From Sphingomonas brevis (GTDB lineage Bacteria; Pseudomonadota; Alphaproteobacteria; Sphingomonadales; Sphingomonadaceae), in the NCBI RefSeq assembly GCF_023516505.1, contig NZ_JAMGBB010000001.1:1488001-1552000 (forward strand): DNA of 64,000 nucleotides, given 5' to 3'. The notes beneath the pieces were generated by a model. It worked only from the letters and a program-made list of their open reading frames with translations. It was not told the origin of the DNA and made no database searches. A program made the translations under genes and the position numbers. This document shows positions 1 to 30,242 of the stretch, one piece after another (position 1 is the stretch's first letter; each line of letters starts with the position of its first letter).

Positions 1-1306
1 TCTGCCCCAGCAAGTCAACGATCATGTCGAGTTCGCCGTCGCTGACATTGTAGGGCGGCGCCAGCAGGATGTGGTCGCCTGACCGGCCGTCGACCGTGCC
101 GCCACTTGGATAGATCAGCAGACCGCGTGCGAATGCCTCGGCTTTCGCGCGCTGGTGAATGGCGAGCGCGGCATCGAACGGCGCCTTGGTCGCGCGATCG
201 GCAACCAGTTCCAGCGCAATGAGCAGGCCCCGCCCACGAATGTCGCCGACATTGCTATGCTGGCCGAAGCTCTGGCCGAGCAAATCCATGAGCCGCTCTC
301 CCGATTGCCTTACCCGCGGCAGCAGCCGCTCTTCGCGAATAACCCTTTGCACCGCGAGCGCGGCCGCGCAGCCTATGACATGAGCATTATAGGTTTGGCC
401 GTGCTTGAGTGCGCCCGATCCAGTTGCGACCGCGTCATACACTTCGCTGCTGCAGACTGCCGCTGCTATCGGCTCGTAGCCGGCCCCTAACCCCTTCCCC
501 AAGGTGACGATGTCGGGAACGACGCCATCCTGTTCGCAAGACAGGAAAGTGCCAGTGCGCCCCGAGCCGCACATGACCTCGTCAAGGATGAGGAGCATAC
601 CGTGGCGGTCGCAGATCTCGCGGATGCGCCTGAGATAGTCCGGCACGGGCGGAACCGCCCCGGCAGTCGCGCCAACCACCGTCTCGGCGACAAAGGCCAT
701 CACCCTGTCCGGGCCAATTTCCAGGATTTCCTGCTCAAGCCTGTTTGCCGCCCGCTCGCCATAGGCTTCCGCACTCTCGCCCGGCTCGGCAAACCGATAT
801 TCGAAGCAGGGATCGACCAGCGAAACGTCGATCAACAGCGGTTCGTAGGGCTTGCGCCGCCAGGCGCTGCCGCCGGCTGCCAGCGCGCCGAGCGTATTGC
901 CATGATAGCTGAGGCGGCGTGCAATTACCTTGCTCCGTCCGCTGTCGCCGCGCTCAAGATAATATTGGCGCGCGAGCTTCAGCGCGGCTTCGATCGCTTC
1001 GGAACCGCTTCCGGTGAACCAGACGCGGTCGAGCGTTCCGGGACATTGGCCGGCTATGTCGGCCGCCAGCTCCTCCGCGGCTTCCGTGGTGAAGAATCCG
1101 GTATGAACATATTCCAGGCGGCGAGCCTGCTCAGCCATTGCCGCGACCACTGCGGGATGGCCATGGCCGAGGCATGAAACCGCGGCGCCCCCGCAAGCGT
1201 CGACATAGCGCCCACCGCGATCGTCGATCACGTAGATGCCTTCACCGCGGACGGCCAGCGGCGGCCGCGCCTCGGTTGATCGGTGAAAGACGTGCTCGGC
1301 CTCCAT
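1..1306 (-). CDS. Class III PLP-dependent aminotransferase, C-terminus cut by window edge
   Basis: This gene runs off the left edge, so about 435 codons are visible and the stop is missing. The product is a fold-type I, class III aminotransferase that uses pyridoxal phosphate to move an amino group between an amino acid or amine and a 2-oxo acid in the cytoplasm. Visible family marks are the glycine-rich N-terminal sheet (GGRYVDACGGAAVSCLGHGHP), the cofactor-site motif GSGSEAIEAALKLAR, the LILDEVMCGSGRTG segment with the PLP-binding Asp, and TLGKGLGAGYEPIAA with the Schiff-base Lys. The ATG at 1306 is chosen because the nearest upstream ATG is out of frame. It lies 34 bases after the APC permease stop and is probably last in the D-amino-acid operon. 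The substrate cannot be read from the sequence. Confidence 0.9.
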   Translation of the reverse strand, partial: MEAEHVFHRSTEARPPLAVRGEGIYVIDDRGGRYVDACGGAAVSCLGHGHPAVVAAMAEQARRLEYVHTGFFTTEAAEELAADIAGQCPGTLDRVWFTGSGSEAIEAALKLARQYYLERGDSGRSKVIARRLSYHGNTLGALAAGGSAWRRKPYEPLLIDVSLVDPCFEYRFAEPGESAEAYGERAANRLEQEILEIGPDRVMAFVAETVVGATAGAVPPVPDYLRRIREICDRHGMLLILDEVMCGSGRTGTFLSCEQDGVVPDIVTLGKGLGAGYEPIAAAVCSSEVYDAVATGSGALKHGQTYNAHVIGCAAALAVQRVIREERLLPRVRQSGERLMDLLGQSFGQHSNVGDIRGRGLLIALELVADRATKAPFDAALAIHQRAKAEAFARGLLIYPSGGTVDGRSGDHILLAPPYNVSDGELDMIVDLLGQ

Positions 1307-1340
1307 CGTATCGGAACATGGTCCCCGGCGTCGTTACGGG

Positions 1341-2681
1341 TCAAGCGGTCGCTTGTTTCCGCCTTTTCTGGAAGTGAATCAGTCCGCTGATCGGGATGGC
1401 GATGGCAATCATCGCAAGCATCGCCATGCCCCCGACCGGATCGGACCAGAGGTACGCCGCAAACAAGGTGCCATCGATCGCCAGCAGCAAGATCGGCAGG
1501 TAGGGATGCCCCCGCGCCCGATACGGCCTTTCCAGGTCCGGCTCGCGATGCCGAAGCACGAAATAAGCGATGTCGGTGACGACGAAGGTGAACAGCGTCA
1601 TCGCCCCCATCAGCAGGAATACGGTTTCGAAACTTCCCGACATGGTCATGGCAATTGATGCAGCCACGGCAAGGATCGTCGACCAGTCTGGCGTTCCGCC
1701 CCGGTTTACATGCGCCGACCATTTGAAAAACAAGCCGTCGCGCCCCAGCCCGTAAATGATCCTCGGCGCGATCAGGATGTAGGCGTTGGCGCTGCTGAAC
1801 ACGACCAGCATGGCGATCGCTACCAGGATCAGCCTGCCGTCCGCTCCGATGACTCGGCCCACGACCTCGGCGGCCGGGAAATCCGAATGAGCCAATGTCG
1901 GGATATCGAGTGCCGCCACCAGCCCGAGGTTGAAGCCGATATAGACGAATGAGGCTGCGGCGATCGATCCGAATATGGCTTTGGGAATCTCCCGACCGCC
2001 GCTCTTGCTTTCGTCGCCGAAATAGCCGGGATAGGCCCAGCCGCTGTAGACGCCGTATATCAACAGATATGCCGTGATCGCACCGACGAGGTTCATCGCG
2101 CCAGGCGCCGGCGCTTTCATGGCTCCGGTGCCGGCGGCCATCAGCAAGGTCATAACGATCGCCGCAAGCATGATGGCCTTCAGCAGAGCCGTCGCCTGCT
2201 GGACGGCGCTGCCTTCACGAATGCCCAGCAGGTTGACGCCAAGGAGTAAGACCTGGACGCCAATCGCGAGTGCGACGCCATAGGGAATAAGGGCCGGGAC
2301 GATCATCCCCGCGAAGGTGGCGAAGAGGATCGTTACGGCAGCGATGGCCGCGCAGGTTTGGGCGGCATCCGCCCAACCGACGACCAGGCCGCCAAAGTCG
2401 CCGAAAGCGCGACGGGCAGTAACGAACAGCCCACCATCCCTGGGTAGCGCCGTCATTACCTCCGCGACGACATTGGCGCCGAGGAATGAGTGAAGGCTGC
2501 AGGCGGCCCAAAGCGCGACAATCAGCCAGGGTTCGGGCGTCAAAGCGGCTACGCTACCTGAAGTCTTGAGCAGGCCGCCGCCGACAACACCGCCGAAACC
2601 GATCGCCAGCCCGAATGCCAGGCCCAGGACACGATGAAGCGCCGAGCCTTTCTCCGCCGGTTGCTGAGCTTGCGACCCCAT
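1341..2681 (-). CDS. APC-superfamily amino acid permease
   Basis: This is a 446-residue inner-membrane transporter of the amino acid-polyamine-organocation superfamily, with about 12 hydrophobic helices. The first helix carries the glycine-rich unwound stretch (GFGGVVGGGLLKTSG, near residues 28-42) that contacts the substrate carboxyl group in this superfamily. The length is normal for the family. A strong GGGAGGGGG ribosome site precedes the ATG at 2681. It sits between the D-aminoacylase-like gene and the aminotransferase on the same strand, so import of an amino acid released in the periplasm is the likely role. The substrate is unknown. Confidence 0.88.
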   Translation of the reverse strand: MGSQAQQPAEKGSALHRVLGLAFGLAIGFGGVVGGGLLKTSGSVAALTPEPWLIVALWAACSLHSFLGANVVAEVMTALPRDGGLFVTARRAFGDFGGLVVGWADAAQTCAAIAAVTILFATFAGMIVPALIPYGVALAIGVQVLLLGVNLLGIREGSAVQQATALLKAIMLAAIVMTLLMAAGTGAMKAPAPGAMNLVGAITAYLLIYGVYSGWAYPGYFGDESKSGGREIPKAIFGSIAAASFVYIGFNLGLVAALDIPTLAHSDFPAAEVVGRVIGADGRLILVAIAMLVVFSSANAYILIAPRIIYGLGRDGLFFKWSAHVNRGGTPDWSTILAVAASIAMTMSGSFETVFLLMGAMTLFTFVVTDIAYFVLRHREPDLERPYRARGHPYLPILLLAIDGTLFAAYLWSDPVGGMAMLAMIAIAIPISGLIHFQKRRKQATA

Positions 2682-2756
2682 GGCTGTCCCCCTCCCGCCG
2701 ATCGCCGCGGCGTAGCACGGCCGGCAATCGAAAGCTTCAGGCCAAATCAGGCCATG

Positions 2757-4481
2757 CTAGCTCGACTTGCGGCACGCCCCGCCATCGGGCCAGCCGGTCC
2801 ATCCGGCCCCCTTCACGAACCGGCCGGGTTTTGCGCCGGTTGGGGTGCCGTCTTTAAGAACCTGGACGCCGTTGACGAATACATCTCGGACACCAGTCGC
2901 GAACTGCATTGGATTGGCGAAAGTCGAATGATCGGCGATCGTCGCCGGATCGAACAGGACGACATCGGCAACCATCCCGGCTTTCAGCTGTCCCCGGTCG
3001 CGCAATCCAAGATTGCTCGCCGGTAGCGCCGAAAGGCGTCGTACGGCCTCGGCCAGCGGCGCGACTTTCTCGTCACGGACATATTTGCCGAGGAACCGCG
3101 CGAAATTGCCATAGGCGCGCGGATGCGTGCTCGATTTCAGGAACACGCCTTCAGGCGCCGCTGCCTCGGCATCCGATCCGAAGCTGACCCATGGAAGTGC
3201 GGCCTGCCGCCTGACATTATCCTCGTTCATCAGGAAGTAGATGGCGCTCGACCGGCCCTTGTCGGCCAGCACCAGGTCGATCACCGCCTGTTCCGGGGTC
3301 ACGCCCCGCTCCTTTGCCACTTCGGCTACGGTCTTCCCCATCAGCGGCTTCAGGGACGGCTCGGTCATGCTGGCGAGAAGGACACCGTCCGGTCCCGCAT
3401 GGAGATAGAGATTTTCCCAATTGGAACCGGGCCGGAGCATTTCCTTCTTGATGCGTTCTACCGTCGCCGGATCCTTGAGCCGTCCAAGCATGGCATCGAC
3501 GCCGCCATCCTGGACCCAGGGCGGCATGGATGCAGCCAGCCCGGTACCGCCGGCCGTATAGGTGTACATGTCGGCGCTGATCTTGAGCCCGGCTGCCCGC
3601 GCCGCTTCGACTTTCGCGATCGCGGCGTCGATCTTGCCCCAATTGGCGCGGCCGACCTGTTTCAGGTGATAGATTTCGGCCGGCGCGCCCGAACGGCGCG
3701 AAATCTCGATCAGCTCGTCGATGCTTTCCAGAAGGCGATCGCCTTCGGATCGCATGTGGCTGATGTAATTTCCGCCGCATTGGGCGGCTTCAGTGGTCAG
3801 GGCGACCAGCTCGTCCGTCTCGGCGAAGCTCGCCGGCGGATAGATTAGGGACGTGCCGACGCCGAGCGCTCCTTCCTCCATCGCCTGCCGCACGAGCGCC
3901 CTCATGCGCTTCAGCTGCTCCGGATTGGGGTCGACGTCGCCGTCGCCCAGTTCATGCTGCCTGACGGTGGTGGCGCCGACGTAGGACGCCACGTTCATCG
4001 TCGTGCCCCGGCGTTCAAGGAGGCTCAGATATTCGCCCAGCGTGGTCCATTCGATCGGATATTTGAAATCGCCCTGCTGTTCGACGGCTTCCTTCTTCAT
4101 CCGGTCGTTGAGCGGGCCCATCGACCAGCCCTCGCCCATCACCTCGAGGGTGACGCCCTGCCGAAGATCGCTTTGGCCAAGCCCATCGACGAGCAGGGAT
4201 TCGGTGGCCCAGCTAAGCATGTTGATGAACCCCGGCGCGACGGCCAGGCCCTTGGCGTCGACCACCTGCTTGGCGGCCCCCGGCAAGGACTGCCCAACCG
4301 CGACGATCTTGCCGCCGCGGATCGCTACCTCGCCGCGAAACGGTACCGCGCCGCTGCCATCATAGATGGTGCCGTTGCGGATCAGCAGGTCATAGGACTC
4401 CTGCTCCGCCCCAAGCGCCGAGCTGCCCGGCAAGATCGCTGCCGCCAGTGCGGACAATGCAACTCCAGTACGCCATGCCAT
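2757..4481 (-). CDS. D-aminoacylase-like amidohydrolase with altered metal site
   Basis: This 574-residue exported protein belongs to the N-acyl-D-amino-acid deacylase branch of the amidohydrolase superfamily. A signal peptide ends near residue 24 (SSALGA). The N-terminal composite sheet begins YDLLIRNGTIYDGSG. Known D-aminoacylases bind zinc through an HxH motif, a Cys, two further His and an Asp. Here the HxH position reads GFINMLSW (residues 84-91, His replaced by Leu89 and Trp91) and the Cys position is Gly118. The later ligands look retained: His242 in ISHMRS, His272 in IYHLKQ and Asp437 in FGSDAE. The ATG at 4481 follows a GGGAGG ribosome site. It is downstream of an S12 hydrolase in the same operon. 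It could hydrolyse N-acyl-D-amino acids or a related amide, or use a single metal. The exact reaction is uncertain. Confidence 0.8.
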   Translation of the reverse strand: MAWRTGVALSALAAAILPGSSALGAEQESYDLLIRNGTIYDGSGAVPFRGEVAIRGGKIVAVGQSLPGAAKQVVDAKGLAVAPGFINMLSWATESLLVDGLGQSDLRQGVTLEVMGEGWSMGPLNDRMKKEAVEQQGDFKYPIEWTTLGEYLSLLERRGTTMNVASYVGATTVRQHELGDGDVDPNPEQLKRMRALVRQAMEEGALGVGTSLIYPPASFAETDELVALTTEAAQCGGNYISHMRSEGDRLLESIDELIEISRRSGAPAEIYHLKQVGRANWGKIDAAIAKVEAARAAGLKISADMYTYTAGGTGLAASMPPWVQDGGVDAMLGRLKDPATVERIKKEMLRPGSNWENLYLHAGPDGVLLASMTEPSLKPLMGKTVAEVAKERGVTPEQAVIDLVLADKGRSSAIYFLMNEDNVRRQAALPWVSFGSDAEAAAPEGVFLKSSTHPRAYGNFARFLGKYVRDEKVAPLAEAVRRLSALPASNLGLRDRGQLKAGMVADVVLFDPATIADHSTFANPMQFATGVRDVFVNGVQVLKDGTPTGAKPGRFVKGAGWTGWPDGGACRKSS

Positions 4482-4510
4482 GGCAGTCCCTCCCGATTCT
4501 TCGACCCGGA

Positions 4511-6082
4511 TTAGCGCGATGCAACCGGCGTGAAGTTCAAATCCTGATAGTCAAAGCTGAAATCGGCTGTCGGAGACACCGGCTTCATCGTGATCCGATC
4601 GACCTTGCCTTCGGGGTCGATCCCAAAGGTGACATAGGCCGGCTCGATCCCCTTGTCCTCGAAGCGAGCGATGAACGTGTCATATTGATAGTGCACCAGC
4701 GGGCCGCTCATCCGCGGCGTTTCGTCAAAGTTGATGCCGAGGCCGGACTTGCCCTGCGACACGGTGATCTTGCCGTACCATGGATCCTTGAATTGGCCGG
4801 CGTAGCGGTCGAGCGACAGCGACGGGCCAACTTTGGCGGGGGCGGCCGCCTTGGTTTCCACTGCTGCCTTGGCGTTGGTCAGCATCGTGGTGATCAGGCC
4901 TTTATACTTGGCCGGCCAGTCCGCGAATGGACGCCCGAGATAATGGTCGATGAGCTCGTTCGTCAGGCCGCGCCGAACGGCGCTTTCTTCCGCGTTCAGC
5001 GTGATTGCGAAGCCAACATTCTTCTCGGGAATCAGCACGACCATCGTAATGAACCCAAACACGCCGCCGGAGTGCGAAATGATCTTGGCCCCGCCATATT
5101 CGGAAACTTCCCAGCCAAGGGCATAGGCCCTGAACATCGGCTTGGTCGCTTCAAATCCAGGCGGAACCGGACCGATCGGTTCGATCGTTTCCGGATTCCA
5201 CATCGCTGCGGACGAGGCTTCGCTGAACAGCTGGCCGCCATTCTCGGTCTTGCCGTGCGACAGCTGGATCTTCAGCCACTTGGCAAGGTCGTTGGCGCTC
5301 ATCGCCAGCAGCCCCGCCGGGGTCGAAGCGGCACCGAGCTGGTCGGTTTCGTCGAGCAGCTGCAGGTCGCCAAGTCCACGAACGGGTCCGTTGATCCGTC
5401 CGTGCGGATAGGCGCGATTGACGGTTCCCAGGCGGCCCGGCTCATCGCTGGTAGCGGTCAGCAAACCGGCGGGCTTGTACACATGGTCGCGGACATAGCT
5501 TTCGTAACTCTGTCCGCTGACCGCTTCGATCAACGCGCCGGCAACCGTGTAGAGGATATTGTCATAGGCATAGCCGCTGCGGAAGCTCGTGGCCGGCTTG
5601 ATGTGCTTGAGCCCTTCGAGCATCTGGGCGCGGGTCCGCTTGCTGCGCGGAACGAACATCAGGTCGCCAGCGCCAAGGCCAAGGCCGCTGCGGTGAGTCA
5701 GCAGGTCGCGCACCGTCATTTCGCGCGTGACCCAGCTATCATACATCTGGAAACCGGGCAGCCGGTCGACCACCCTGTCGTCCCAGCCCAGCTTGCCCGC
5801 ATCCACGAGGGTCGCCAGCGCCGCAACCGTGACCGCCTTGCCGGTCGAGCCGGTCATGAAAATCGTGTCGGCGTCGACAGGGTCGGTGGTGCCGATCTTG
5901 CGGACGCCGTAGCCGCGAGCCAGGACCGTCTGGCCATTTTCGACAATGGCGATGGCCATGCCCGGAGTCTCCGACGCACGACGAAGCTGTTCGACCCGCT
6001 GGTCGAAATTGGCCGGCGGAGCGGCGAACGACGGGCAGCTTGCTGCCAGCGCGATCAGGGCAACGGAAAGGCGGGATTTCAT
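4511..6082 (-). CDS. Periplasmic serine hydrolase, beta-lactamase/D-aminopeptidase family (S12)
   Basis: This is a 523-residue exported serine hydrolase of the class C beta-lactamase / penicillin-binding-protein fold. A signal peptide covers about residues 1-20. The nucleophile motif SxxK is S79-T-G-K82, the second motif is Y173-D-N175, and a late SHSGG segment supplies the H/KxG-like motif. A C-terminal lipocalin-like extension follows the catalytic domain, as in D-aminopeptidase relatives. Its ATG overlaps the stop of the upstream permease gene (ATGA), so the two are translationally coupled. Known relatives cleave D-amino-acid peptides, esters or beta-lactams. In this operon a role on D-residue peptides is the best guess, but the substrate is inferred from context only. 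Confidence 0.88.
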   Translation of the reverse strand: MKSRLSVALIALAASCPSFAAPPANFDQRVEQLRRASETPGMAIAIVENGQTVLARGYGVRKIGTTDPVDADTIFMTGSTGKAVTVAALATLVDAGKLGWDDRVVDRLPGFQMYDSWVTREMTVRDLLTHRSGLGLGAGDLMFVPRSKRTRAQMLEGLKHIKPATSFRSGYAYDNILYTVAGALIEAVSGQSYESYVRDHVYKPAGLLTATSDEPGRLGTVNRAYPHGRINGPVRGLGDLQLLDETDQLGAASTPAGLLAMSANDLAKWLKIQLSHGKTENGGQLFSEASSAAMWNPETIEPIGPVPPGFEATKPMFRAYALGWEVSEYGGAKIISHSGGVFGFITMVVLIPEKNVGFAITLNAEESAVRRGLTNELIDHYLGRPFADWPAKYKGLITTMLTNAKAAVETKAAAPAKVGPSLSLDRYAGQFKDPWYGKITVSQGKSGLGINFDETPRMSGPLVHYQYDTFIARFEDKGIEPAYVTFGIDPEGKVDRITMKPVSPTADFSFDYQDLNFTPVASR

Positions 6083-7206
6083 TTAGCCTCCAGGGGTGTC
6101 GATTGTTGACGCCAGAGCCGCCAGACGCCGAAGGTCAGGAGCGGCAGGACAAAAACGGCGAGCAGGATATAGGCCAGCGCGCGATAGCCGTTCGCGATCA
6201 GCGCAACGAGCCCGAAGCGCTCGGCAAGGAACATGCAGAACAGAAGCATCGCGAGCGAAATCAGCAGCCGCATGCGATGGCTGAGCTCCACCCCGCGTCT
6301 GGTCTTCACGGTCTTGGCGATACGCTCGTTGATAGCGTGGACCGAGCTCGCCCCGCTCTCCAGCAGCGCCGAAAAGATCATCAGCTGGAACAGCATGTGG
6401 AACAGCGGCAAATCGAGCCTCTGAAGCATGAAGTCCGACGGCAGCGTCGCCGAAGCGATGTCGGGCAGAAAGGCGACCATGCAGGCAAAGAAGAGCGCAC
6501 CAGGCAGCATCGCCAACGGTCCTGCAAGCAGCCCGGCCACGACTGCGTCGCGATTGCTGGTGAGGTGCCTCATCACCGGCAGGATCACGACCGCCCCGAT
6601 CAGATTATAACCGGCGTAGACCGTTCCTCCGGCGGCCCAGCTGCCGACCGCAGCTTCGTTCGAAAATGCCGCCCTGATGTCATTACCGAAACGGCTGAAA
6701 GCCAGGATCACGAACAGGGCGTAGACGGCGTAGAGCAGGTAGGAGACATAGGCGAACATCCGCTCGACCGAGGCGTTGCCGAACGTCACGATCGCGATAA
6801 TCGACAGCCCCAGCGCCAGCGTGCCCCAAACATGGTTCACGCCGAACAGGGCGGTGCCGATCGATCCTGCGGCCGCGCCATAGACGGCAAGAATCAGGAC
6901 AATGAACAGGATGTAGGCGCCCTCGAACAGCACCCACCCCGGGCCGAGAAGCTGCTTGAAGAAGGTCACATAATCGCGGGCGCCGAATTGGCGTGCGAAG
7001 AGAAATGTCACGATGCAGCACAGGCTGAACAATGTCATCGACAGCGCCATGGCTGCCAGACCGCCCCAGGCCCCGCTCGGCAGGAAAAATTCCGCCAGTT
7101 CCCGGCCGGTGGCATAGCCGCCGCCGATGACGACTGCCTTGAAGGCGAATCCGGGCAGCAAATAGCGTTGAAACCAGGAAGACTTGATCGGCACGGTTGG
7201 GCTCAT
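6079..7206 (-). CDS. YkvI-family membrane transporter
   Basis: This 375-residue integral membrane protein has about ten hydrophobic helices and resembles the YkvI family, a poorly characterised branch related to the APC/LeuT-fold transporters. The first helix contains GGGYATGRELAEFF (near residues 27-40), matching the glycine-rich AGxxSGQE-like start typical of YkvI. The start ATG follows the dgcN stop by four bases, and its own stop overlaps the next start by four (ATGA). A transporter between the DUF1611 gene and a serine hydrolase suggests movement of a D-amino acid or its N-acetyl derivative. No YkvI substrate can be assigned from sequence. Confidence 0.75.
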   Translation of the reverse strand: MSPTVPIKSSWFQRYLLPGFAFKAVVIGGGYATGRELAEFFLPSGAWGGLAAMALSMTLFSLCCIVTFLFARQFGARDYVTFFKQLLGPGWVLFEGAYILFIVLILAVYGAAAGSIGTALFGVNHVWGTLALGLSIIAIVTFGNASVERMFAYVSYLLYAVYALFVILAFSRFGNDIRAAFSNEAAVGSWAAGGTVYAGYNLIGAVVILPVMRHLTSNRDAVVAGLLAGPLAMLPGALFFACMVAFLPDIASATLPSDFMLQRLDLPLFHMLFQLMIFSALLESGASSVHAINERIAKTVKTRRGVELSHRMRLLISLAMLLFCMFLAERFGLVALIANGYRALAYILLAVFVLPLLTFGVWRLWRQQSTPLEAK

Positions 7207-7210
7207 GGCC

Positions 7211-8260
7211 TTAGCCTTGGCAGCGATCGAGCAGGCGCTCGAAGGCGGGACCGCCTCTTACAGGGTCGGCCACCGGAAGGCCAAGCCGGTCGGACTCGGC
7301 CGCGATCAGCCGTTGAGCGGCTTCAACGTTCATGCCGGATGTATTCAGGCTAACGCCAACGCATCGGATATCCGGGTTGGTCAGCTTGCCGAGCACTACG
7401 GTCTGCAAAATGAGTTCTTCGATCGAGGGAAGCTGGAAACCGGAATAGCCGAGAACATGGGTCCGGCCGGGCTCGTGGCAAGCCACGAACATATCGGGCT
7501 GGCTTCCGTGCAACAGACCGAGCGACACAGCCGCATAGGCCGGGTGGAACAGCGAACCCTGGCCCTCGATCACGTCGATATGATCGGGCGGCGCATCGGG
7601 CGTCAGCATTTCGGCGGCGCCGGCGATGAAGTCGGACACGACGGCATCGATCGGGATTCCTGAACCGGCAATCATGATACCGGTCTGGCCGGTTGCGCGG
7701 AACGTCACGTCCGCACCGCGCCCTTCCAGTCCCCGAGCGATCGACAGCGCCGCATATTTCTTGCCCAGCGCGCAATCGGTGCCAACTGTAAGCAACCGCT
7801 TGCCGCAGCGCTTCCGGCCCGTCGCGATCGGAATCCTGGCCGGCGGCACTCGCACATCGATGAGGCGGCGGCCGAGCATTTCGGCTGTGGCAGCGAGCTG
7901 GGGAATGTCGTTGAGCCTGGCATGCATGCCCGACACGATATCCAGCCCGGCCTTCAGGGCGTCGAGCAGAGCCGAAATCCAATGGTGCGGGATTGCCCCG
8001 CCCGGCGTCGCGACACCAATCAGCAATGCCCGGGCGCCCTTTGCATATGCTTCGCGGCAGCTCAGCCGGGGAATGCCGGTGCTTACCGTCGCGCCTGGCA
8101 AGGCAAGCTCGCCGATGCATCGGTCCGGAGCCCAATCGCACAGGCCAAATGCGGTCTTGGCATAGCCTGGCTCGACCGTATCCCCGAGGAACAGGAGGTA
8201 GGGTTGCGGAAGCCCTACATCCTGTCCCTGCGGATCTAGCGCTCGGCTCGGTTCGGCCAC
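7211..8260 (-). CDS. dgcN: DUF1611 / DgcN-type D-glutamate N-acetyltransferase
   Basis: The 349-residue product belongs to the DUF1611 family, in which DgcN was shown in marine proteobacteria to acetylate D-glutamate as the first step of a D-Glu catabolic route. It has a Rossmann-like N-terminal domain starting PYLLFLGDT (residues 20-28) and a P-loop-like C-terminal domain with GTDCALGKK (160-168), followed by TFRATGQTG. The start is a GTG at 8260, directly after the receptor stop codon, and no internal ATG precedes the conserved core. An enolase-superfamily racemase of DgcA type is encoded 3.6 kb away on the same strand, which supports the assignment. Older annotation would simply say DUF1611 or NAD-dependent epimerase-like. 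Confidence 0.8.
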   Translation of the reverse strand: MAEPSRALDPQGQDVGLPQPYLLFLGDTVEPGYAKTAFGLCDWAPDRCIGELALPGATVSTGIPRLSCREAYAKGARALLIGVATPGGAIPHHWISALLDALKAGLDIVSGMHARLNDIPQLAATAEMLGRRLIDVRVPPARIPIATGRKRCGKRLLTVGTDCALGKKYAALSIARGLEGRGADVTFRATGQTGIMIAGSGIPIDAVVSDFIAGAAEMLTPDAPPDHIDVIEGQGSLFHPAYAAVSLGLLHGSQPDMFVACHEPGRTHVLGYSGFQLPSIEELILQTVVLGKLTNPDIRCVGVSLNTSGMNVEAAQRLIAAESDRLGLPVADPVRGGPAFERLLDRCQG

Positions 8261-10483: not shown

Positions 10484-10583
10484 AATTTCCTCCCCAAATT
10501 CGGTGCAGTCGGCCGGTCTCTTGCCGGCCTTGCGACCAAGGAGTCGGCATAGGACGACGCCGTCTCCATTTAATCCCAATAAA

Positions 10584-10614
10584 GACACTATTGTCCTGAT
10601 TAGAAAATTGTCAA
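10584..10614 (-). promoter_or_regulatory. Promoter/operator of the TonB receptor gene, third copy of cluster repeat
   Basis: The + strand reads GACACTATTGTCCTGATTAG at 10584-10603, almost identical to the tandem repeats at 14959-14998, and AGAAAATT follows it here as it does after the second tandem copy. The first 12 bases are also a near-perfect dyad (GACA-n-TA-n-TGTC). On the minus strand a TTGACA -35-like box lies at 10614-10609, overlapping the POT gene stop. A shared site before two leftward transcription units and beside the regulator gene points to one transcription factor. Confidence 0.65.
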
Positions 10615-11888
10615 TCCGCTTCGGCTGAAACTTTCTCAGGACGTGATGGCTCGGCAACAGTGCTCATTCCACGCAGCAGAATGGCGGCCAGGCCGGCTAT
10701 TCCCGCAAGGAGCAGGAAGTAAGCAGCGGGATCGAACTTGCTCCACAAAGTCCCGATCAGCCCGGCGCTCAGGCTGCCGCTGAAGATAACCAGGAACCAG
10801 GAGGCAACGGTGGTCGCGCCCAGGTGCGGCGGTGCGAGCCGGGCGAACAGGCCCAGGCCGGTAGGCAAGATGAACAATTCCCCGAAGGTGAAGATCAGGA
10901 AGAAAAGCGCCAGCCAGGCCCAGCCGGCCAGGGCGGCCCCGCTCAAGAGCTCAACCCCGGCGAGAAGGAGGTAAGATGCGCCAACGATCAGCGCTCCCGT
11001 AGCCATTCGCCGGATCAACGATGCGCGCGTCTCAAGGTGGATATGGCGTCGCCAGTAAGCGAGCAGCGGCGGGGTCATGATCATGACGAACAGCGGGTTC
11101 AGCGACTGGAACCAGGTCATCGGAATCTCATAGGCGCCAGCGGCGCGATCGATCCCGCTGTCGGCCCACAACGCTACCGTATTACCGACCTGCTCATAGG
11201 CTGCGCGGAACACGGTTACGCAAAGACCGATGCCGAGCAGGACCAATATGGTGTGCCGGTCGAAGCCCGTGCGGGCGCCAGCCTCCGCGGCGTTCGGTTT
11301 CGGCTGTTCCACCGGCAGGTATTTCTGCCCCGAAAGATAGATCAACAGGCCCGCCACCATGCCGACGCCGGCGGCACCGAAACCATAATGCCAGCCATAT
11401 AGCTCGCCCAGGGTCCCGCAGATCAATGGGGCGAGGAACCCGCCGATATTGATCCCGACATAATAGACGTTGAAGGCCCAGCCGCGCCGGGGGTCGTCAC
11501 GCCGATAAAGGTCGCCGACCTGGCTGGGTAGGCTTGGCAGGAACAGGCCGTTGCCAATCGCAATCGCCGCCAGCGCCGCATAGAACAGCGGCTCGAACGC
11601 CATCATGAAATGGCCCAGGGCCATGACGCTGGCGCCGATAATCACCGCCTTGCGCTTGCCAAGATAGCGGTCGGCGATGACCCCGCCGATGATCGGCGTG
11701 AAATAAGCGCAGGCCGTGTAGGTCCCGTAGATGAAGGAGGATTGGGCCTGCCCTATCAGCAGCTGCTTGGTCATATAATAGACCAGCAGCGCCCTCATCC
11801 CATAGTAAGAGAATTGCTCCCACATATTGGTGAGAAACAGGACGGTAAGGCCACGCGGCTGGCCGAACCACGTGCGCTCGTCGGTCAT
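10611..11888 (-). CDS. POT/PTR-family proton-dependent peptide transporter
   Basis: This 425-residue transporter of the proton-dependent oligopeptide (POT) branch of the major facilitator superfamily has about 12 membrane helices. The first helix holds NMWEQFSYYGMRALLVYYM (residues 21-39), matching the POT signature ExxERFxYYG, but with Asn21 for the first Glu and Gln25 for the Arg. The second family block, FNVYYVGINIGGFLAPLI, is clear. The ATG at 11888 overlaps the dgcA stop (ATGA), so I reject the 95-codon upstream extension. It probably brings di- or tripeptides released by the S12 hydrolases into the cytoplasm. Altered coupling residues could mean a changed proton mechanism. Confidence 0.88.
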   Translation of the reverse strand: MTDERTWFGQPRGLTVLFLTNMWEQFSYYGMRALLVYYMTKQLLIGQAQSSFIYGTYTACAYFTPIIGGVIADRYLGKRKAVIIGASVMALGHFMMAFEPLFYAALAAIAIGNGLFLPSLPSQVGDLYRRDDPRRGWAFNVYYVGINIGGFLAPLICGTLGELYGWHYGFGAAGVGMVAGLLIYLSGQKYLPVEQPKPNAAEAGARTGFDRHTILVLLGIGLCVTVFRAAYEQVGNTVALWADSGIDRAAGAYEIPMTWFQSLNPLFVMIMTPPLLAYWRRHIHLETRASLIRRMATGALIVGASYLLLAGVELLSGAALAGWAWLALFFLIFTFGELFILPTGLGLFARLAPPHLGATTVASWFLVIFSGSLSAGLIGTLWSKFDPAAYFLLLAGIAGLAAILLRGMSTVAEPSRPEKVSAEAD

Positions 11889-12895
11889 GCAACCGCGACC
11901 TTGCCCGAACCCCAGACTTCCGGCCCGGCAGTGATGTTGCCATCCTTGTAGACCACGCTTGGAGTCCGGTCTTCGGCGAGGAAGGTCGGGCCGTCGAGAT
12001 CGACGATGTCGCAGCCCTGGCCGAGGACGAACGCAGGTGCCATTGCAAGGCTCGAGCCGACCATATTGCCAACCATGACGCCGAGCCCGAGGCGGCGCGC
12101 CTCCGCTGCCATCAGCAGTCCTTCGGTAAGGCCGCCACACTTGTCGAGCTTGATGTTGACGACGTCGAAGCAACCGATCGCGCCAGGCAAATCTTCCAGG
12201 GTCAGCAGGCTCTCGTCGCCCGCGATGGGGACTGGAGATTTGTAGCCGTACAGATCCGATTCACGGCCGCGAGCGAGCGGCTGCTCAAGGAGCGAGACTT
12301 GCTGTTCCTCGAGGGCTGCGACCAGTTGGTCGAGCTGGTCGATGACGAAGCCCTGATTGCCATCGACGCCGAGCCACACGTCCGGACGTGCTGCGCGGAT
12401 CGCCTCCACCCGGGCAATGTCCAGGTCCAGCTCGCCGGTCAGCTTGACCTTGATCGACCGTGCATCGGCGTATCGCCGAGCGCCCTCGGCCATGACCTCA
12501 GGCTCATCCGCGCCGAGGGTGAACGTCGTCCGAAGCGGCTGTGGGTCGGCTTGGCCCGCGAGCTGCCAAACCGGCTTTCCGGCTCTTGCGGCCTCCAGTT
12601 CCCACAGTGCGCAATCGACCGCGTTGCGGGCCCCGCCGGCTGGCATGATCGAGCGCAGCTCCTCCCTGGTGGGACCCGCCTCAATTGCCGACCGGACGGC
12701 ACCGATCGAGTAAAGCATGTGGGCGACGTCATCACCGAGATAATAGACGCCGCCCCCTTCACCGCTGCCCCTCAGGTCGCCGTCCCGAAGTGTAACCACG
12801 ACGACGTCCGAACCGGTGAAGACATGCCCCGAGATCCGAAACGGCTGAGCCAGCCGCAACGTCTCTACGCTTACATCCAACTCTAGGCGTGACAT
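11885..12895 (-). CDS. dgcA: Enolase-superfamily N-acetyl-D-glutamate racemase / dipeptide epimerase
   Basis: The 336-residue product is a muconate-lactonising-type member of the enolase superfamily, close to L-Ala-D/L-Glu epimerases and the N-acetyl-D-glutamate racemase DgcA. The visible active site is complete: the general base K149-V-K151, metal ligands D178, E204 and D227, and the opposite base Lys in NIKLDKCGG (K252). The late motif DLDGP at 299-303 fits the epimerase subgroup. The ATG at 12895 overlaps the upstream stop by one base (TGATG), which excludes a 97-codon upstream extension. With dgcN in the same cluster I favour racemisation of N-acetyl-D-Glu, while the adjoining POT gene also suits L-Ala-D-Glu epimerisation. 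Both may occur. Confidence 0.85.
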   Translation of the reverse strand: MSRLELDVSVETLRLAQPFRISGHVFTGSDVVVVTLRDGDLRGSGEGGGVYYLGDDVAHMLYSIGAVRSAIEAGPTREELRSIMPAGGARNAVDCALWELEAARAGKPVWQLAGQADPQPLRTTFTLGADEPEVMAEGARRYADARSIKVKLTGELDLDIARVEAIRAARPDVWLGVDGNQGFVIDQLDQLVAALEEQQVSLLEQPLARGRESDLYGYKSPVPIAGDESLLTLEDLPGAIGCFDVVNIKLDKCGGLTEGLLMAAEARRLGLGVMVGNMVGSSLAMAPAFVLGQGCDIVDLDGPTFLAEDRTPSVVYKDGNITAGPEVWGSGKVAVA

Positions 12896-14901
12896 CAGTA
12901 GTTGGTGCCGAAGCCGACAAGGTGGAATGCGAATGCGACCCAGGCGATCACTGCCGCGGAGAGCAGCAGGGCGACGGCCCAGGCTTTGACGAACCAGCGC
13001 CGCTTCTCGAGGAACGCCTGACGCAGGTTCCAGCCCGCCAGCAAGAGCAGGCCAACGAACGCAATTGGGGTGAGCACCTGGACGGCGATCAGCAGCGGAT
13101 CGAGCGGCCCGCCGAGCAGCGAGAGGCTTGAGAAGCCAACCGATACGAAGGTGACCCAGCCGGCCAGCGTGGCAAGCGACAACCACTGCCAGCCATGCCA
13201 GATCCGCTGCATGCGGAGGCGCTTGCCTTCATGGACATTGGCGACCTTGAACCGACGTCGTGCGATCGCTCCGGCCGGCCAGGAGAGTGCAGCCAGGAGC
13301 AGCAGGCCGAGCGATACATATAGCGACGGCGCCAGCCATGCCGGATTTTTGTACCAGGGCACCCGGTCGAACACCATGAACGGCGAGACCGTGTCGAAGC
13401 TCCAGCGCGTTACCTGGCCATTCTCGACCTTGGCCGCGAGCTTCTCGCCGCTGTCCAGGTCCTTCCAGACATAGGGCGAGATTTCTTCCCACCGGCGAGG
13501 CTTGTTGCCGGTGTTGGTGACCATCGGCGCGGACAGCTTGCCATTCTCATCAGGGCCGATTGCCACTGGGCCGATCAGGTCCAGGATATGGAGAAATTTG
13601 GAGCGAATGCCGCGGCTGTTGAAATAATTGCCGGCCATCTGCTGAACATGCTTTTTCGCGGTTGCCTCATCGACCTTGGCGGTAACCGGCTGGGCGGCGA
13701 AATAACGGTTGCCGAACTCGTCGAAGAGACGCTCGCGCAGTGCACGCGGGGCGCCCTCGCCACCGGCGCTGTTGACCGAGACGAACAGGCCCACATTGTC
13801 GTCGATGAATAGCGTCAGGTCGGAGTGGAACAGGCTGGTGTCGCCGCCATGAGCAAGGCCGCGATGGCCATTGATGCCCTGCTCGTAAAAGCCGAGCGCC
13901 ATGCGATTGAGGCCCGGGATCACGTCGTAGCGATACTCGTGCATCAACTTGGCGGTTTCGGGCTTCAGCAGGCCGGCGCCATTGTTCAGGTGAGCGATCA
14001 TGAACTTGCCCATGTCGGCGCCGGATGCCGACAGGCTTCCGGCAGGCGCGGGATCCACGATCTCGAACCGCTCGGCCTTCGGTGCCGACGCGCCCTTGTA
14101 GCCCTGTGCCATGAACGGCTGCAGATTCTTGGGCAGCGGCTGCCGGAAGCTCGCATGCTGCATGTTGAGAGGCTTGAAGATGTGCTGATCGACATAATCG
14201 TCGAACGATTGTCCCGATTGGCGCTCGACGATGTAACCGGCCAGGGCAGTCGCATAGTTGGAATAGGCCGGGGTCGTGCCCGCATCGAACACGCGGTTCG
14301 GCAGGCTCACCCTCACAAACTTGTCCAGCGGAACGACGGGAACTGTATCATCGTGGATCAGGTGCCGTACCGTTTCCTCGAAACCGGCCGTATGCGTCAT
14401 GATGTTGCGCATCGTGATCGGCTTGCCGTTACGCTCCGGAATCTTGAAGTCGAGGTAGGTGTTGACGTCCTTGTCGAGGTCGATCTTGCCCTGCTCCACC
14501 AATTGCATGACCGCAGTCCAGGTGAAGAGCTTAGATATCGAGCCAGGACGGAACAGCGTGGTCTCCGGCGACACCGGCGTGCGCTTTTCGACGTTTGAGA
14601 AGCCATAGCCCCGCTCGGTCAGTACCTGGCCGTCCTTCACGACCACGACCACCGCGCCGGCAATATCGCCGCGCGCGATCGCGTAAGGCATGTAACCGTC
14701 GAGCCAGGCATCGACATCGGTCTTGTTGAGCTCATGAGTCCCGCCCAACGCCGGTAATGCAGGAGTCGCGCCGGGCGCTGCCGACGATGCCAACGGGTTG
14801 CCGACGGTCGTAACGGGACCAAGCTTGACGGCCTGCTGCGCAACCGCGGTTCCGGCGACGATCGCCGCCAATCCAAATGCTATTCCGCGCCATTTCTTCA
14901 T
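12895..14901 (-). CDS. S12 serine hydrolase with C-terminal membrane domain
   Basis: This 668-residue protein has a signal peptide (cleavage near AVAQQ), a class C beta-lactamase-like domain (about residues 60-420) and four predicted membrane helices in the last 150 residues. SxxK is S121-I-S-K124, the YxN motif is Y213-S-N215, and AHGGDTSLF supplies the third motif. The C-terminal helices would anchor the catalytic domain to the inner membrane facing the periplasm. It is the first gene of the leftward unit opposite the XRE-cupin regulator and overlaps dgcA by one base. A D-aminopeptidase or D-residue endopeptidase role fits the neighbours, but beta-lactamase or esterase activity is not excluded. 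Confidence 0.87.
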   Translation of the reverse strand: MKKWRGIAFGLAAIVAGTAVAQQAVKLGPVTTVGNPLASSAAPGATPALPALGGTHELNKTDVDAWLDGYMPYAIARGDIAGAVVVVVKDGQVLTERGYGFSNVEKRTPVSPETTLFRPGSISKLFTWTAVMQLVEQGKIDLDKDVNTYLDFKIPERNGKPITMRNIMTHTAGFEETVRHLIHDDTVPVVPLDKFVRVSLPNRVFDAGTTPAYSNYATALAGYIVERQSGQSFDDYVDQHIFKPLNMQHASFRQPLPKNLQPFMAQGYKGASAPKAERFEIVDPAPAGSLSASGADMGKFMIAHLNNGAGLLKPETAKLMHEYRYDVIPGLNRMALGFYEQGINGHRGLAHGGDTSLFHSDLTLFIDDNVGLFVSVNSAGGEGAPRALRERLFDEFGNRYFAAQPVTAKVDEATAKKHVQQMAGNYFNSRGIRSKFLHILDLIGPVAIGPDENGKLSAPMVTNTGNKPRRWEEISPYVWKDLDSGEKLAAKVENGQVTRWSFDTVSPFMVFDRVPWYKNPAWLAPSLYVSLGLLLLAALSWPAGAIARRRFKVANVHEGKRLRMQRIWHGWQWLSLATLAGWVTFVSVGFSSLSLLGGPLDPLLIAVQVLTPIAFVGLLLLAGWNLRQAFLEKRRWFVKAWAVALLLSAAVIAWVAFAFHLVGFGTNY

Positions 14902-14958
14902 GGCTTTTACCTCCCCTAATCGCCGGGATTGCCCCGGCCCGCGCCAGCCAATAAGGTT

Positions 14959-14998
14959 GATACTATTGTTCTGATTGGGACACTGTTATCCTGATTAG
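14959..14998. promoter_or_regulatory. Tandem 20-bp repeats in divergent promoter, probable regulator operator
   Basis: Two direct copies of a 20-base unit lie head to tail: GATACTATTGTTCTGATTGG at 14959-14978 and GACACTGTTATCCTGATTAG at 14979-14998. The period is close to two helical turns, so a protein could bind both on one face of the DNA. They lie between the S12 hydrolase start (14901, leftward) and the regulator start (15031, rightward). A third copy precedes the TonB receptor gene. On the minus strand a TTGACG box follows at 15010-15005. The XRE-cupin protein next door is the obvious candidate binder. Confidence 0.65.
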
Positions 14999-15030
14999 AA
15001 AATTCGTCAACTGCAAAGGAGTCCAATTTC

Positions 15031-15669
15031 ATGGCCTCGGAAGTTCCAACCTTGGGCGCACTGTTGCGCGGTGTGCGCAACCGCGAAGATTGGACCCTCA
15101 AGCAGATGAGCGAGAAGAGCGGCATCCCGGTATCGACCCTTTCCAAGGTCGAGCATGACCGGCTGACCCTGACCTATGACAAGCTCTATCAGGTAGCTCA
15201 GCGGCTTGGACTGCGTATGTCGGAGCTGTTCGCCGAATCGAGTGAGGAGGCACCGGCAGCGATCACGGCGCGCCGGAGCCTCTGCGATATCGACCATGCG
15301 GTTCGCGTCGAGACCAACAACTATGATTATTATTTCCTGTGTACCGACCTTCGACGGAAACGGATGATCCCGGTCATCTCAAAAATCCGCGCGAAAACGT
15401 CGAAAGAGTTCGGCGACCTGGTCCATCACGCAGGCGAGGAATTCGTCTACGTCCTGAGCGGCCGCGTCACCGTCAACACCGAACATTATGACGCGGTGAC
15501 CCTGGAAGTCGGTCAATCCATCTATTTCGATTCCAGCATGGGCCACGCTTATCTCGCGGCCGAGGGATGCGACGAGGCGACCGTGCTCGCGGTGATGTCC
15601 AGCGCCGACGAAGAGTTGATGCAGTCCCTGATGACGATGCACGACGGGTCGGGCAACGAAGGGATTTAG
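15031..15669 (+). CDS. XRE-family transcriptional regulator with cupin domain
   Basis: The 212-residue product has an N-terminal XRE helix-turn-helix (about residues 10-65, with TLKQMSEKSGIPVSTLSKVE) and a C-terminal cupin domain (about 120-195, with HHAGEEFVYVLSGRV and GHAYLA). In this family the cupin binds a small ligand such as an amino acid or its derivative and alters DNA binding. An AAGGAG ribosome site precedes the ATG. It is divergent from the S12-dgcA-POT unit and close to tandem 20-bp repeats, so it probably controls the cluster and itself. The ligand may be D-Glu or an N-acetyl derivative, but this is inference. Confidence 0.9.
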   Translation: MASEVPTLGALLRGVRNREDWTLKQMSEKSGIPVSTLSKVEHDRLTLTYDKLYQVAQRLGLRMSELFAESSEEAPAAITARRSLCDIDHAVRVETNNYDYYFLCTDLRRKRMIPVISKIRAKTSKEFGDLVHHAGEEFVYVLSGRVTVNTEHYDAVTLEVGQSIYFDSSMGHAYLAAEGCDEATVLAVMSSADEELMQSLMTMHDGSGNEGI

Positions 15670-15674
15670 AGTCG

Positions 15675-16703
15675 GTGGGGCCAGTTCCTGGATTCTTTGA
15701 CCTCAGGCAGCTGGCGCATGCTCCCGCCCGCGAACTGCATAATGGCGGCTGGGTCGAATATGCCGAAAAGCCTTCTCGCGCCGAGAATATCTCGGCCAGC
15801 CTGGGAGAGTTGAGCGGGGCCAAGGATTTCGGCCTGGAACCGCTACTGGCCGTTCACGACCCGGCCTATATCGACTTCCTCCGTTTGGCTTACACCGATT
15901 GGCGCGCCTCAGGGCGTGAGGGTGATGCAATTGGCTACACCTGGCCCATTGCGCACCGCCGGGACTTGAGGCTCGACCGGATCGACGCCCGGTTGGGCCG
16001 CTACAGCTATGACGCGGCAACGCCGATTGCCGAAGGCACGTGGGATGCCGCCTATTGGAGCGCGCAAACCGCACTCACGGCACTAGCCGCAATAGTCGAT
16101 GAGGGGAGGCGGACGAGCTTCGCCCTGTGCCGGCCGCCCGGCCATCATGCTGGCCGGGATTATTGCGGCGGCTATTGCTACCTCAACAACGCGGCAATTG
16201 CCGCGAGGCGGGCCCAGCAGAAAGGACTGCGGGTCGCCATCCTCGACATCGACTATCATCACGGCAACGGCACCCAGGACATCTTTCTCGAGGATCCGGA
16301 TCTTTTGTTCGTATCGATCCATGCCGACCCGGTGAACGATTACCCCTTCTTCTGGGGACATGCGGACGAGCGCGGCGACGGCAAGGGCGAGGGCAAGACG
16401 ATCAACCTGCCGCTGCCGCGCGGTACCGACATGAGTAGATATCGAGAGGCATTGGACATGGCCCTGCAAGCCGTCGGCGCGCATCGGCCGGACCTGCTGG
16501 TCCTGTCATTCGGGGCGGATACGTTCGAGGACGACCCGATATCCTTTTTCCGGCTTAGGGAAGGCGATTATCGAGAAATAGCCAGCCGCATTGCCGCCAT
16601 CGACCTACCTACGCTGATCGTCATGGAAGGCGGCTATGCAATTGATGCCCTGGGCGCCAACGTATCGGCTCTGTTGTCGGGATTCGAAAGCGCGGCAATT
16701 TGA
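15675..16703 (+). CDS. Histone-deacetylase-like amidohydrolase (acetylpolyamine amidohydrolase type)
   Basis: This 342-residue zinc hydrolase of the arginase/deacetylase fold resembles bacterial acetylpolyamine amidohydrolases, which remove acetyl groups from amines. Catalytic His157-His158 lie in RPPGHHAG, zinc ligands are D193 and H195 in DIDYHHGNG and D282 in GADTFEDD, and the transition-state Tyr is in EGGYAID. No ATG fits the conserved N-terminus, so the GTG at 15675, five bases after the regulator stop, is chosen. It is probably co-transcribed with the regulator. It could deacetylate an N-acetyl intermediate of the neighbouring pathway or act on polyamines. The substrate is not shown by the sequence. 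Confidence 0.88.
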   Translation: MGPVPGFFDLRQLAHAPARELHNGGWVEYAEKPSRAENISASLGELSGAKDFGLEPLLAVHDPAYIDFLRLAYTDWRASGREGDAIGYTWPIAHRRDLRLDRIDARLGRYSYDAATPIAEGTWDAAYWSAQTALTALAAIVDEGRRTSFALCRPPGHHAGRDYCGGYCYLNNAAIAARRAQQKGLRVAILDIDYHHGNGTQDIFLEDPDLLFVSIHADPVNDYPFFWGHADERGDGKGEGKTINLPLPRGTDMSRYREALDMALQAVGAHRPDLLVLSFGADTFEDDPISFFRLREGDYREIASRIAAIDLPTLIVMEGGYAIDALGANVSALLSGFESAAI

Positions 16704-18101: not shown

Positions 18102-18107
18102 TCAACC

Positions 18108-27563: not shown

Positions 27564-27638
27564 GCCGGCTTAGCACAGTGGTAGTGCAGCGGTTTTGTAA
27601 ACCGAAGGTCGGGGGTTCAAATCCCTCAGCCGGCACCA
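27564..27638 (+). tRNA. tRNA-Thr (anticodon TGT)
   Basis: The acceptor stem GCCGGCT (27564-27570) pairs with AGCCGGC (27628-27634), followed by discriminator A and an encoded CCA (27636-27638). The D arm is GCAC/GTGC, the anticodon loop is TTTGTAA with anticodon TGT, and the T arm contains GGTTCAAATCC. The acceptor end overlaps the last codons and stop of the convergent DUF2891 gene. Confidence 0.96.
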
Positions 27639-29571: not shown

Positions 29572-30242
29572 TGGCCGCGCCTCGCCAGCTTGCGATCGAA
29601 TAGCAGCAGCCGGGTCGACTGGATCAGGAATGCGGCAATCGCGCTGGGGATCGCCCATAGCGCGAGGTGCAGAGGGGCTAGATCATAGCCGTAGCCCGCT
29701 AGTATCTGCTGGATGAGCACGATCGAGCCGATCGCGAAAAAGATATCCTCGCCAAAAAAGAGCCCAACATTGTCGGTCGCGGCGGAATAGGCCTTGACCG
29801 TCTCCGCTTCCGCTTCGGTCAATTCGCCATGCTGCTTCTCGGCGGCGGCGAGCGCCATCGGCGCGACTAGCGGCCGGACCGTCTGCGCCTGCCCGGCGGT
29901 CGAATGAAGCCCGATCGCCGCGGTGATCTGCCGATAGATCAGATAAAGGATCAGCAGCTTGCCGGCGGTTGCGCTCTTCAATGAGCGAATCAGCGTGGCC
30001 GCGCGCTGTTGCAGTCCGAACCGTTCGAGCAATCCGATCACTGGCAGGACAATCCAGACGATGGCAATGATGCGGTTGTCGTTGAACGCTTTGCCGAAGG
30101 TCGAGATGACCTCGTGCCAGTCCATCCCCGCGATCAGGCCGGTAGCGATCGCCGACACGGTGACGACCAGCATCGGGTTGAACTTCAGCGCGAAGCCGAG
30201 GACCACCAGTGCGATACCGATCAGCGGCCAATAGTCGATCAT
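29568..30242 (-). CDS. DUF969 membrane protein, probable permease subunit
   Basis: The 224-residue DUF969 protein has about six hydrophobic helices and pairs with DUF979. Characteristic segments are [19 protein letters not shown] and [23 protein letters not shown]-like conserved polar residues within helices, consistent with a transporter. Its start overlaps the 5-oxoprolinase stop (ATGA) and its stop overlaps the DUF979 start, so all four operon genes are translationally coupled. The substrate is inferred to be 5-oxoproline. Confidence 0.88.

Follow-up and report, generated by a model that had tools for sequence, protein, structure and literature searches.

A candidate TonB-fed utilisation locus for D-amino-acid peptides around a divergent DgcN–DgcA pair in Sphingomonas brevis

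We analysed a 64,000-nucleotide stretch of the Sphingomonas brevis genome (positions 1488001–1552000 of contig NZ_JAMGBB010000001.1; genome size 2.59 Mb, 2 contigs), referred to below as the window, which encodes proteins resembling the N-acetyltransferase DgcN and the racemase DgcA. A first-pass annotation of the window had grouped twelve genes at 1–16703 into one system for D-amino-acid peptides and D-glutamate (D-Glu), and all twelve gene types are present as open reading frames at these positions. Minus-strand genes follow one another almost contiguously from 14901 to 2, with gaps of -4 to 127 bp, and the regulator and an HDAC-like gene are divergent from them on the plus strand. Several of the listed reading frames are over-long; the likely starts are 10483 for the TonB-dependent outer-membrane receptor (TBDR), 11888 for the POT transporter and 12895 for DgcA. 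The core, as defined here, is window 2757–16703. The features are, with position weight matrix (PWM) scores for the two predicted operator copies:

15031–15669, plus strand: XRE-cupin regulator (HTH_3 and Cupin_2; Pfam/NCBIfam), divergent from the operon
14979–15009: predicted operator copy 1, between the regulator and the S12b operon, PWM score 34.5
12895–14901, minus strand: S12b, serine hydrolase of the beta-lactamase fold with a long C-terminal part and a hydrophobic N-terminus
11885–12895, minus strand: DgcA-like racemase/epimerase (enolase superfamily), lid residues G23/F26/Y52
10611–11888, minus strand: POT/PTR2 oligopeptide transporter
10584–10614: predicted operator copy 2, before the TBDR–DgcN–YkvI–S12a unit, PWM score 45.2
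8261–10483, minus strand: TBDR
7211–8260, minus strand: DgcN-like (DUF1611) N-acetyltransferase of clade A (see below), Ala at position 44
6079–7206, minus strand: YkvI-like permease, LeuT/APC fold by model
4511–6082, minus strand: S12a, serine hydrolase with DUF3471 and a hydrophobic N-terminus
2757–4481, minus strand: D-aminoacylase-like amidohydrolase with a hydrophobic N-terminus; best NCBIfam match PRK09061, below cut-off
15666–16703, plus strand: accessory HDAC-like deacetylase (acetylpolyamine amidohydrolase group) with an uncertain start codon
1341–2681, minus strand: APC-family amino acid permease, between the two cassettes described below and outside either homology block
2–1306, minus strand: class III aminotransferase, truncated at the window edge and opening the second cassette

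DgcN homologues were found in 50 of the 199 genomes of the family, including that of S. brevis, and 60 of the 83 matched places outside its own genome were fetched; at least 79 loci from named genomes were added to this sample. Once duplicates, loci flanked by less than 8 kb and those lacking a scored DgcN had been removed, 108 of 139 loci were kept and divided by DgcN identity to the window protein into clade A (at least 59%, n = 71), clade B (below 52.5%, n = 21) and loci in between (n = 16). Genes within 9 kb were named by their best BLASTP match to proteins of the window and a few neighbours, at 35% identity or more (28% for TBDR and S12).

This comparison separated two kinds of locus, clade A and a clade B linked to LysR-type regulators and SDF dicarboxylate symporters. 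Clade-A loci (n = 71) carry S12b in 62 cases, XRE-cupin and TBDR in 56 each, DgcA in 55, YkvI in 53, S12a and an M19 dipeptidase in 45 each, the D-aminoacylase-like gene in 29, POT in 25 and HDAC in 4, and neither LysR nor SDF in any. In clade B (n = 21), DgcA is present throughout, with LysR in 19, the D-aminoacylase-like gene in 15, TBDR in 13, SDF in 12 and S12b in 5, whereas XRE-cupin, YkvI, S12a, M19 and POT are all absent. TBDR frequency does not differ significantly between the two clades (p 0.15). XRE-cupin, both S12 types, DgcA and YkvI occur together in 38 of 71 clade-A loci. Judged by gene content, the core is thus a conserved locus that recurs in sphingomonads and some other Proteobacteria; hosts with most of it include Sphingomonas, Sphingopyxis, Novosphingobium, Xanthomonas, Pseudoxanthomonas, Rudaea and Povalibacter, and also Duganella, there without a YkvI match. 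Some genomes have multiple DgcN matches (seven in G085 and six in G140, fragments included). Within the genus, genome G197 has the locus and G077 and G145 have no DgcN match. Protein identity to the window at the G197 locus (L046) is a mosaic, 87% for S12a, 85% for the D-aminoacylase-like protein, 69% for DgcN, 63% for YkvI and 50% for S12b, and this suggests gene replacement within the locus. Among the literature matches listed, no published account of an XRE-cupin/S12/DgcN locus was seen, one query being swamped by unrelated DGCN papers, and the word DUF1611 appeared in two papers, both with Dickeya in the title.

The XRE-cupin protein shows distant similarity to PuuR, far under the cut-off of the PuuR model. 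Upstream of its gene, a match of at least 19 of 31 positions to the consensus GACATAATGATCCTGATTAGAAAATTGTCAA was found in 42 of 56 non-duplicate sequences, the window included, with the seed read off these same 56 sequences. Twenty sets of plain shuffles gave no match nineteen times and one match once. A weight matrix built from these matches recovered 106 sites, spread over 65 of the 89 loci treated as clade A, and these sites lie mostly before XRE-cupin/S12b, TBDR, M19 and DgcN; the count takes in training sites as well as some duplicates and a small number of divergent loci. With the same matrix, neither the clade-B loci (n = 21, 420 kb) nor the 27 kb to the left of the window gave a site. 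Within the 64 kb of the window its only sites are at 10584 and 14979, one before each transcription unit, and the 15-base core of the motif has just two exact matches in the genome, both at this locus, and a third place with 2 mismatches. The site at 10584 overlaps a promoter-like TTGACA-N16-AATAGT on the minus strand, although such promoter-like sites overall are not above shuffles. The motif itself is supported by conservation, and because one motif precedes each unit, a single regulator, the XRE-cupin protein, would control both. The coupling of uptake, peptide cleavage and DgcN–DgcA that the first-pass annotation had proposed is upheld, because the core is conserved and one operator motif lies before both transcription units.

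The idea that a single theme unites all twelve genes fared less well. In Sphingomonas caseinilyticus (L108), the nearest named relative, DNA synteny covers window 2766–16639 in the same order, with no break between the two halves of the core, and nothing matched further left; the first two genes of the window thus lie outside the conserved core. Core genes and HDAC share 73–92% protein identity with their S. caseinilyticus counterparts, and the receptor 41%. Set beside nine other shared genes at 73–92%, the receptor looks as if it had been swapped or were evolving fast while the enzymes stayed stable. An operon end at base 1 was ruled out, the same-strand run extending ~8 kb further left through the rest of the aminotransferase, an OYE/FadH-like oxidoreductase, an S58 peptidase, an aldehyde dehydrogenase (ALDH), a CoA-transferase subunit A and a TolB-propeller/CehA amidohydrolase; no subunit B gene was seen adjoining that of subunit A. 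The second cassette (aminotransferase, OYE, S58 and ALDH) and the two genes that follow it lie at window 1–1306 and L003:6904–16306. Genome G011 (L101) matches window -4839 to 1294 with aminotransferase, OYE, S58 and ALDH in the same order; its fetched stretches holding the left cassette contain no DgcN, the one DgcN match of this genome lying on a different contig. Genes for hydantoinase A and B are also present near the left cassette in G011. Since the homology blocks in S. caseinilyticus and G011 do not overlap, one theme for the twelve genes is rejected: judged by gene order, the aminotransferase belongs to a separately inherited cassette that runs past the window edge, the APC permease falls in neither block, and HDAC accompanies only 4 of 71 clade-A loci.

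The DgcN–DgcA pair bears on the substrate. The window DgcN, which matches only DUF1611 families in Pfam and keeps many invariant residues, scores 439.4 bits against the equivalog NF041892 and does not reach the cut-off of 480; three of three clade-B DgcN pass (496.3–514.8 bits) and two of two further clade-A DgcN fail. Similarly, the window DgcA scores 361.4 bits (362.3 in a second search) against NF042940, under the cut-off of 400, which three of three clade-B DgcA pass (425.8–438.9 bits) and two of two further clade-A proteins fail. The enolase-superfamily fold and the Lys/Lys acid–base pair place the window DgcA in the muconate-lactonising enzyme (MLE) subgroup, and K151, K252, D178, E204, E228, D299 and D301 are kept in all 60 clade-A DgcA (at least 55% identical to the window protein, window included).

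The lid differs sharply between the groups. In clade A (n = 60), position 23 is G in all, position 26 is F in 58 and I in 2, and position 52 is Y in 56 and F in 4, the window protein having G23, F26 and Y52. The 30 best-scoring DgcA from the 81 of 299 genomes that pass the NF042940 cut-off, taken as controls, have R at 23 (30), R or K at 26 (19 and 11) and R at 52 (30), and clade-B DgcA (n = 19) have R at 23 (19), K, R or T at 26 (16, 2 and 1) and R at 52 (19). Intermediate DgcA (n = 23) are mixed, with R23 in 16 and G in 5, and Y52 in 15 and R in 6. DgcN changes as well: position 44, an R in the solved structure 7xrj, is A in 84, V in 2, I in 2 and L in 1 of 89 clade-A rows and never basic, as against R in 35, H in 1, A in 1 and V in 1 of 38 rows from clade B or linked to over-cut-off DgcA, a count that leaves aside intermediate rows. 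Across 118 loci, DgcA position 52 and DgcN position 44 are both non-basic in 67 and both basic in 42. In a quick DgcA tree of 105 rows, which included 45 of the 59 other clade-A rows before copy removal and half of the 30 controls and was built without the lid columns, clade-A rows fall on one side of a branch with a Shimodaira–Hasegawa-like approximate likelihood ratio (SH-aLRT) of 99 (47 rows, among them L164 with D at 23); G23 with Y/F52 also occurs in five tree rows elsewhere, making three changes in all. One locus outside clade A, L176 of Pseudohaliea rubra, has the non-basic lid GFY, and a YkvI-like permease (38%), M19, a D-aminoacylase-like gene and S58 accompany it; its DgcN keeps Arg44, and its lid is possibly a case of convergence.

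Among solved relatives, TM-scores of the DgcA model are 0.88 to 1jpd and 0.92–0.93 to 4gfi. An Arg in the 20s loop is present in the L-Ala-D/L-Glu epimerases 1jpd and 1jpm, in 3ijq with L-Ala-D-Glu bound and in the DgcA-like 4gfi, and absent from 3jva, from 3q45 with D-Ala-L-Val bound and from the N-succinyl Arg/Lys racemase 2p88. The window DgcA has no Arg in this loop, and its lid loops resemble those of 3jva, which presumably prefers hydrophobic residues, more than those of 1jpd. From the lid and the DgcN position-44 changes we infer that the substrate is a neutral D-amino acid. A search of PMC3605383 for the residue terms gave no match.

Several points weigh against this assignment and the scheme built on it. 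The clade-A substrate pockets are predicted by alignment, and Arg24 of the E. coli L-Ala-D/L-Glu epimerase (AEE) is taken to bind the Glu carboxylate. The 20s loops compared are those of 1jpd, 1jpm, 3ijq, 4gfi, 3jva, 3q45, 2p88 and 3r0k, with 2zad/3deq (L-Ala-L-Leu) and 3rit outside this set; 3r0k, too, carries an Arg in its 20s loop. By itself, position 52 is no proof, because the L-Ala-D-Glu-binding 3ijq has Tyr-Leu-Gly-Glu in its 50s loop and no Arg there. Eight of the 118 loci combine a non-basic DgcA position 52 with a basic DgcN position 44 (the reverse combination occurs once), and since losses of the lid Arg and of DgcN Arg44 form only 1–2 independent pairs, the joint change carries no statistical power. 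In 16 of the 71 clade-A loci no DgcA was found within 9 kb, and the specificity of the S12 and D-aminoacylase-like enzymes is not predictable at these identities.

The remaining proteins bear on uptake and cleavage. The permease at 6079–7206 has no Pfam or NCBIfam family match; its AlphaFold model (mean predicted local distance difference test score, pLDDT, 89) has a LeuT/APC fold with the bacterial asc transporter as best structural match (TM-score 0.72 by query length), and YkvI-like is an assumed label for it. Hydrophobic, signal-like N-termini are present in the receptor, both S12 enzymes and the D-aminoacylase-like protein but not in DgcN, secretion being judged here from hydrophobic N-termini alone. 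The D-aminoacylase-like protein scores 207.7 bits against PRK09061 (cut-off 340), and its matches in the PDB, D-aminoacylase at 248 bits and N-acyl-D-glutamate deacylase at 206 bits, are both distant. A HMMER alignment shows it to lack two features of D-aminoacylase structures, the Cys and, on the first metal-site strand, the His-x-His, presumably metal ligands, so its metal site may differ. Elsewhere in the genome are three M19 dipeptidase matches, all outside the locus, and the genome has 13 M20-family matches.

Taken together, the locus holds the parts of a TonB-fed utilisation locus: a receptor, predicted periplasmic hydrolases, an inner-membrane transporter and a local regulator with a shared operator motif. 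We somewhat favour the reading that it serves the use of D-amino-acid peptides under XRE-cupin control, with a D-amino acid that is probably neutral or hydrophobic rather than D-Glu. Besides the residue changes, this choice of substrate is favoured by the lack of LysR and SDF in clade A, by the LeuT-fold permease of the window and by the higher score of the D-aminoacylase-like protein with D-aminoacylase structures than with N-acyl-D-Glu deacylase, distant as both are. The TonB receptor would import the peptide, and the periplasmic S12 hydrolases, in relatives often alongside an M19 dipeptidase, would cut it. The YkvI-like permease and POT would then carry in the D-amino acid and small peptides. 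Inside the cell, DgcN would acetylate the D-amino acid, DgcA would racemise the N-acetyl-D- to the N-acetyl-L-amino acid, and a deacetylase, either the HDAC-like protein or a product of one of the M20-family matches, would free the L-amino acid. The D-aminoacylase-like protein, if periplasmic, may release D-amino acid from N-acyl forms outside; with this protein outside and DgcN cytosolic, no futile cycle would arise. The XRE-cupin protein would govern both units through the shared operator. The gene set, the operator motif and the residue changes are read from sequence, and each of these reactions is what we infer from them.

Three other readings deserve weight, and the likelihoods that we attach to them are not mutually exclusive. 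The first-pass annotation had named D-Glu as substrate, and peptidoglycan-peptide degradation in which DgcN and DgcA handle D-Glu as in the marine pathway would agree with their best NCBIfam matches and with S12 and M19 enzymes suited to D-containing peptides. We nevertheless consider it unlikely. Both proteins fall under their equivalog cut-offs, all 60 clade-A DgcA lack the basic lid residues at 23, 26 and 52, none of the 89 clade-A DgcN rows has Arg44, and the SDF symporter and LysR regulator occur in 0 of 71 clade-A loci. Families of LD-carboxypeptidases and gamma-D-Glu-DAP peptidases are absent among the locus genes scanned, and the genome has three Asp/Glu racemase-family matches elsewhere. 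A reading to which we give no greater credence makes DgcA a dipeptide epimerase: POT would import L-X-D-Y dipeptides, DgcA would turn them into L-L forms for ordinary dipeptidases, and DgcN would act separately on free D-amino acids. Here the same-strand order of S12b, DgcA and POT with overlapping ends is in favour, as are the closest structures, which are dipeptide epimerases, and a D-x-D motif that all 60 clade-A proteins retain; moreover, passages of PMC13338154 describe dipeptide epimerases of hydrophobic specificity. However, D-x-D does not serve to tell a dipeptide epimerase from an N-acetyl racemase, since it is kept in every group, including 30 of 30 over-cut-off DgcA, and DgcA is often without POT (55 against 25 of 71 clade-A loci). 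This reading is in part compatible with the use of D-amino-acid peptides that we favour.

Less probable still, and in our view quite improbable, is an operon for beta-peptides or other odd peptides in which a BapA-like S58 peptidase, the aminotransferase, ALDH and the CoA-transferase define the substrate and DgcN–DgcA are secondary. Among solved enzymes the S58 protein is indeed closest to beta-peptidyl aminopeptidase (338.9 bits; the aminopeptidase 1b65 reaches 268.6), and the genes run on along one strand, uninterrupted by an operator site. Yet none of the 71 clade-A and 21 clade-B loci has a left-cassette gene close to DgcN, S58 being there in 1 of the 16 others (Pseudohaliea, L176); G011 has aminotransferase, OYE, S58 and ALDH side by side in a fetched stretch that contains no DgcN; and OYE homologues at E 1e-120 or better occur in just 4 of 199 family genomes, that of S. 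brevis included.

Comparison with described systems helps to define what is distinct about the locus. The DgcN–DgcA route has been described for D-Glu and related acidic D-amino acids, with a LysR-type regulator, DgcR, and its founding study is said to be that of Yu et al. 2023 in ISME J. The window pair belongs to the same two enzyme families and keeps the DgcA catalytic and metal residues and many DgcN invariant residues, but scores below both cut-offs and has changed lid residues. The locus has XRE-cupin in place of LysR and YkvI, POT and TBDR in place of SDF, with added S12 and, in relatives, M19 hydrolases. Parts of PMC12363236 and PMC10845958 treat the D-Glu pathway. With enolase-superfamily dipeptide epimerases, including L-Ala-D/L-Glu epimerase, the window DgcA shares the fold, the Lys pair and the DxD motif; it scores 223.3 bits against the L-Ala-D/L-Glu epimerase model NF011708 (cut-off 343), however, and lacks the lid Arg. 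In Geobacillus, an N-succinyltransferase, an N-succinylamino acid racemase and a desuccinylase together convert D- to L-amino acids irreversibly. The window locus shares the logic of N-acylation, racemisation and deacylation, but its acyltransferase matches DUF1611 families alone, and to these steps it joins TonB uptake, hydrolases that are putatively secreted and a dedicated regulator. The mlr microcystin-degradation cluster of sphingomonads has an S12 peptidase and a POT-type transporter, both also present at the window locus. The MlrC N-domain PF07364 gave no match in the genome, which counts only weakly against an mlr relationship because the control search was also silent. The chemistry of N-succinylamino acid racemase is covered in part of PMC8142540.

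Two neighbouring groups of genes lie outside the core. An HlyD-type adaptor and an AcrB-type resistance–nodulation–division (RND) efflux pump (16926–21296) immediately follow the HDAC-like gene on its downstream side. At 27626–35138, some 11 kb away from the locus, DUF2891, DUF979, DUF969, a fused, 5-oxoprolinase-like hydantoinase A/B and a pyridoxal phosphate (PLP) enzyme are on the same strand, perhaps a 5-oxoproline pathway.

The view of this region as a D-amino-acid peptide system around DgcN–DgcA stands; D-Glu from peptidoglycan is disfavoured as its substrate, and two of the twelve genes fall outside the core. More broadly, we put at even chances that the clade-A loci represent a second, unrecognised DgcN–DgcA branch that inverts neutral or hydrophobic D-amino acids, is coupled to TonB import and secreted D-peptide hydrolases in an XRE-cupin regulon, has spread horizontally among sphingomonads and other Proteobacteria, and is multicopy with diverging receptors in some genomes. 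Peptides rich in D-amino acids belong to the organic matter that turns over slowly, and a locus for their use would resemble a polysaccharide utilisation locus with another substrate. If clade A does invert neutral D-amino acids, many genomes would carry a mistaken D-Glu annotation for these genes, and a complete system from uptake to inversion, with its operator motif defined, would become directly testable, the operator offering a ligand screen that would name the substrate.

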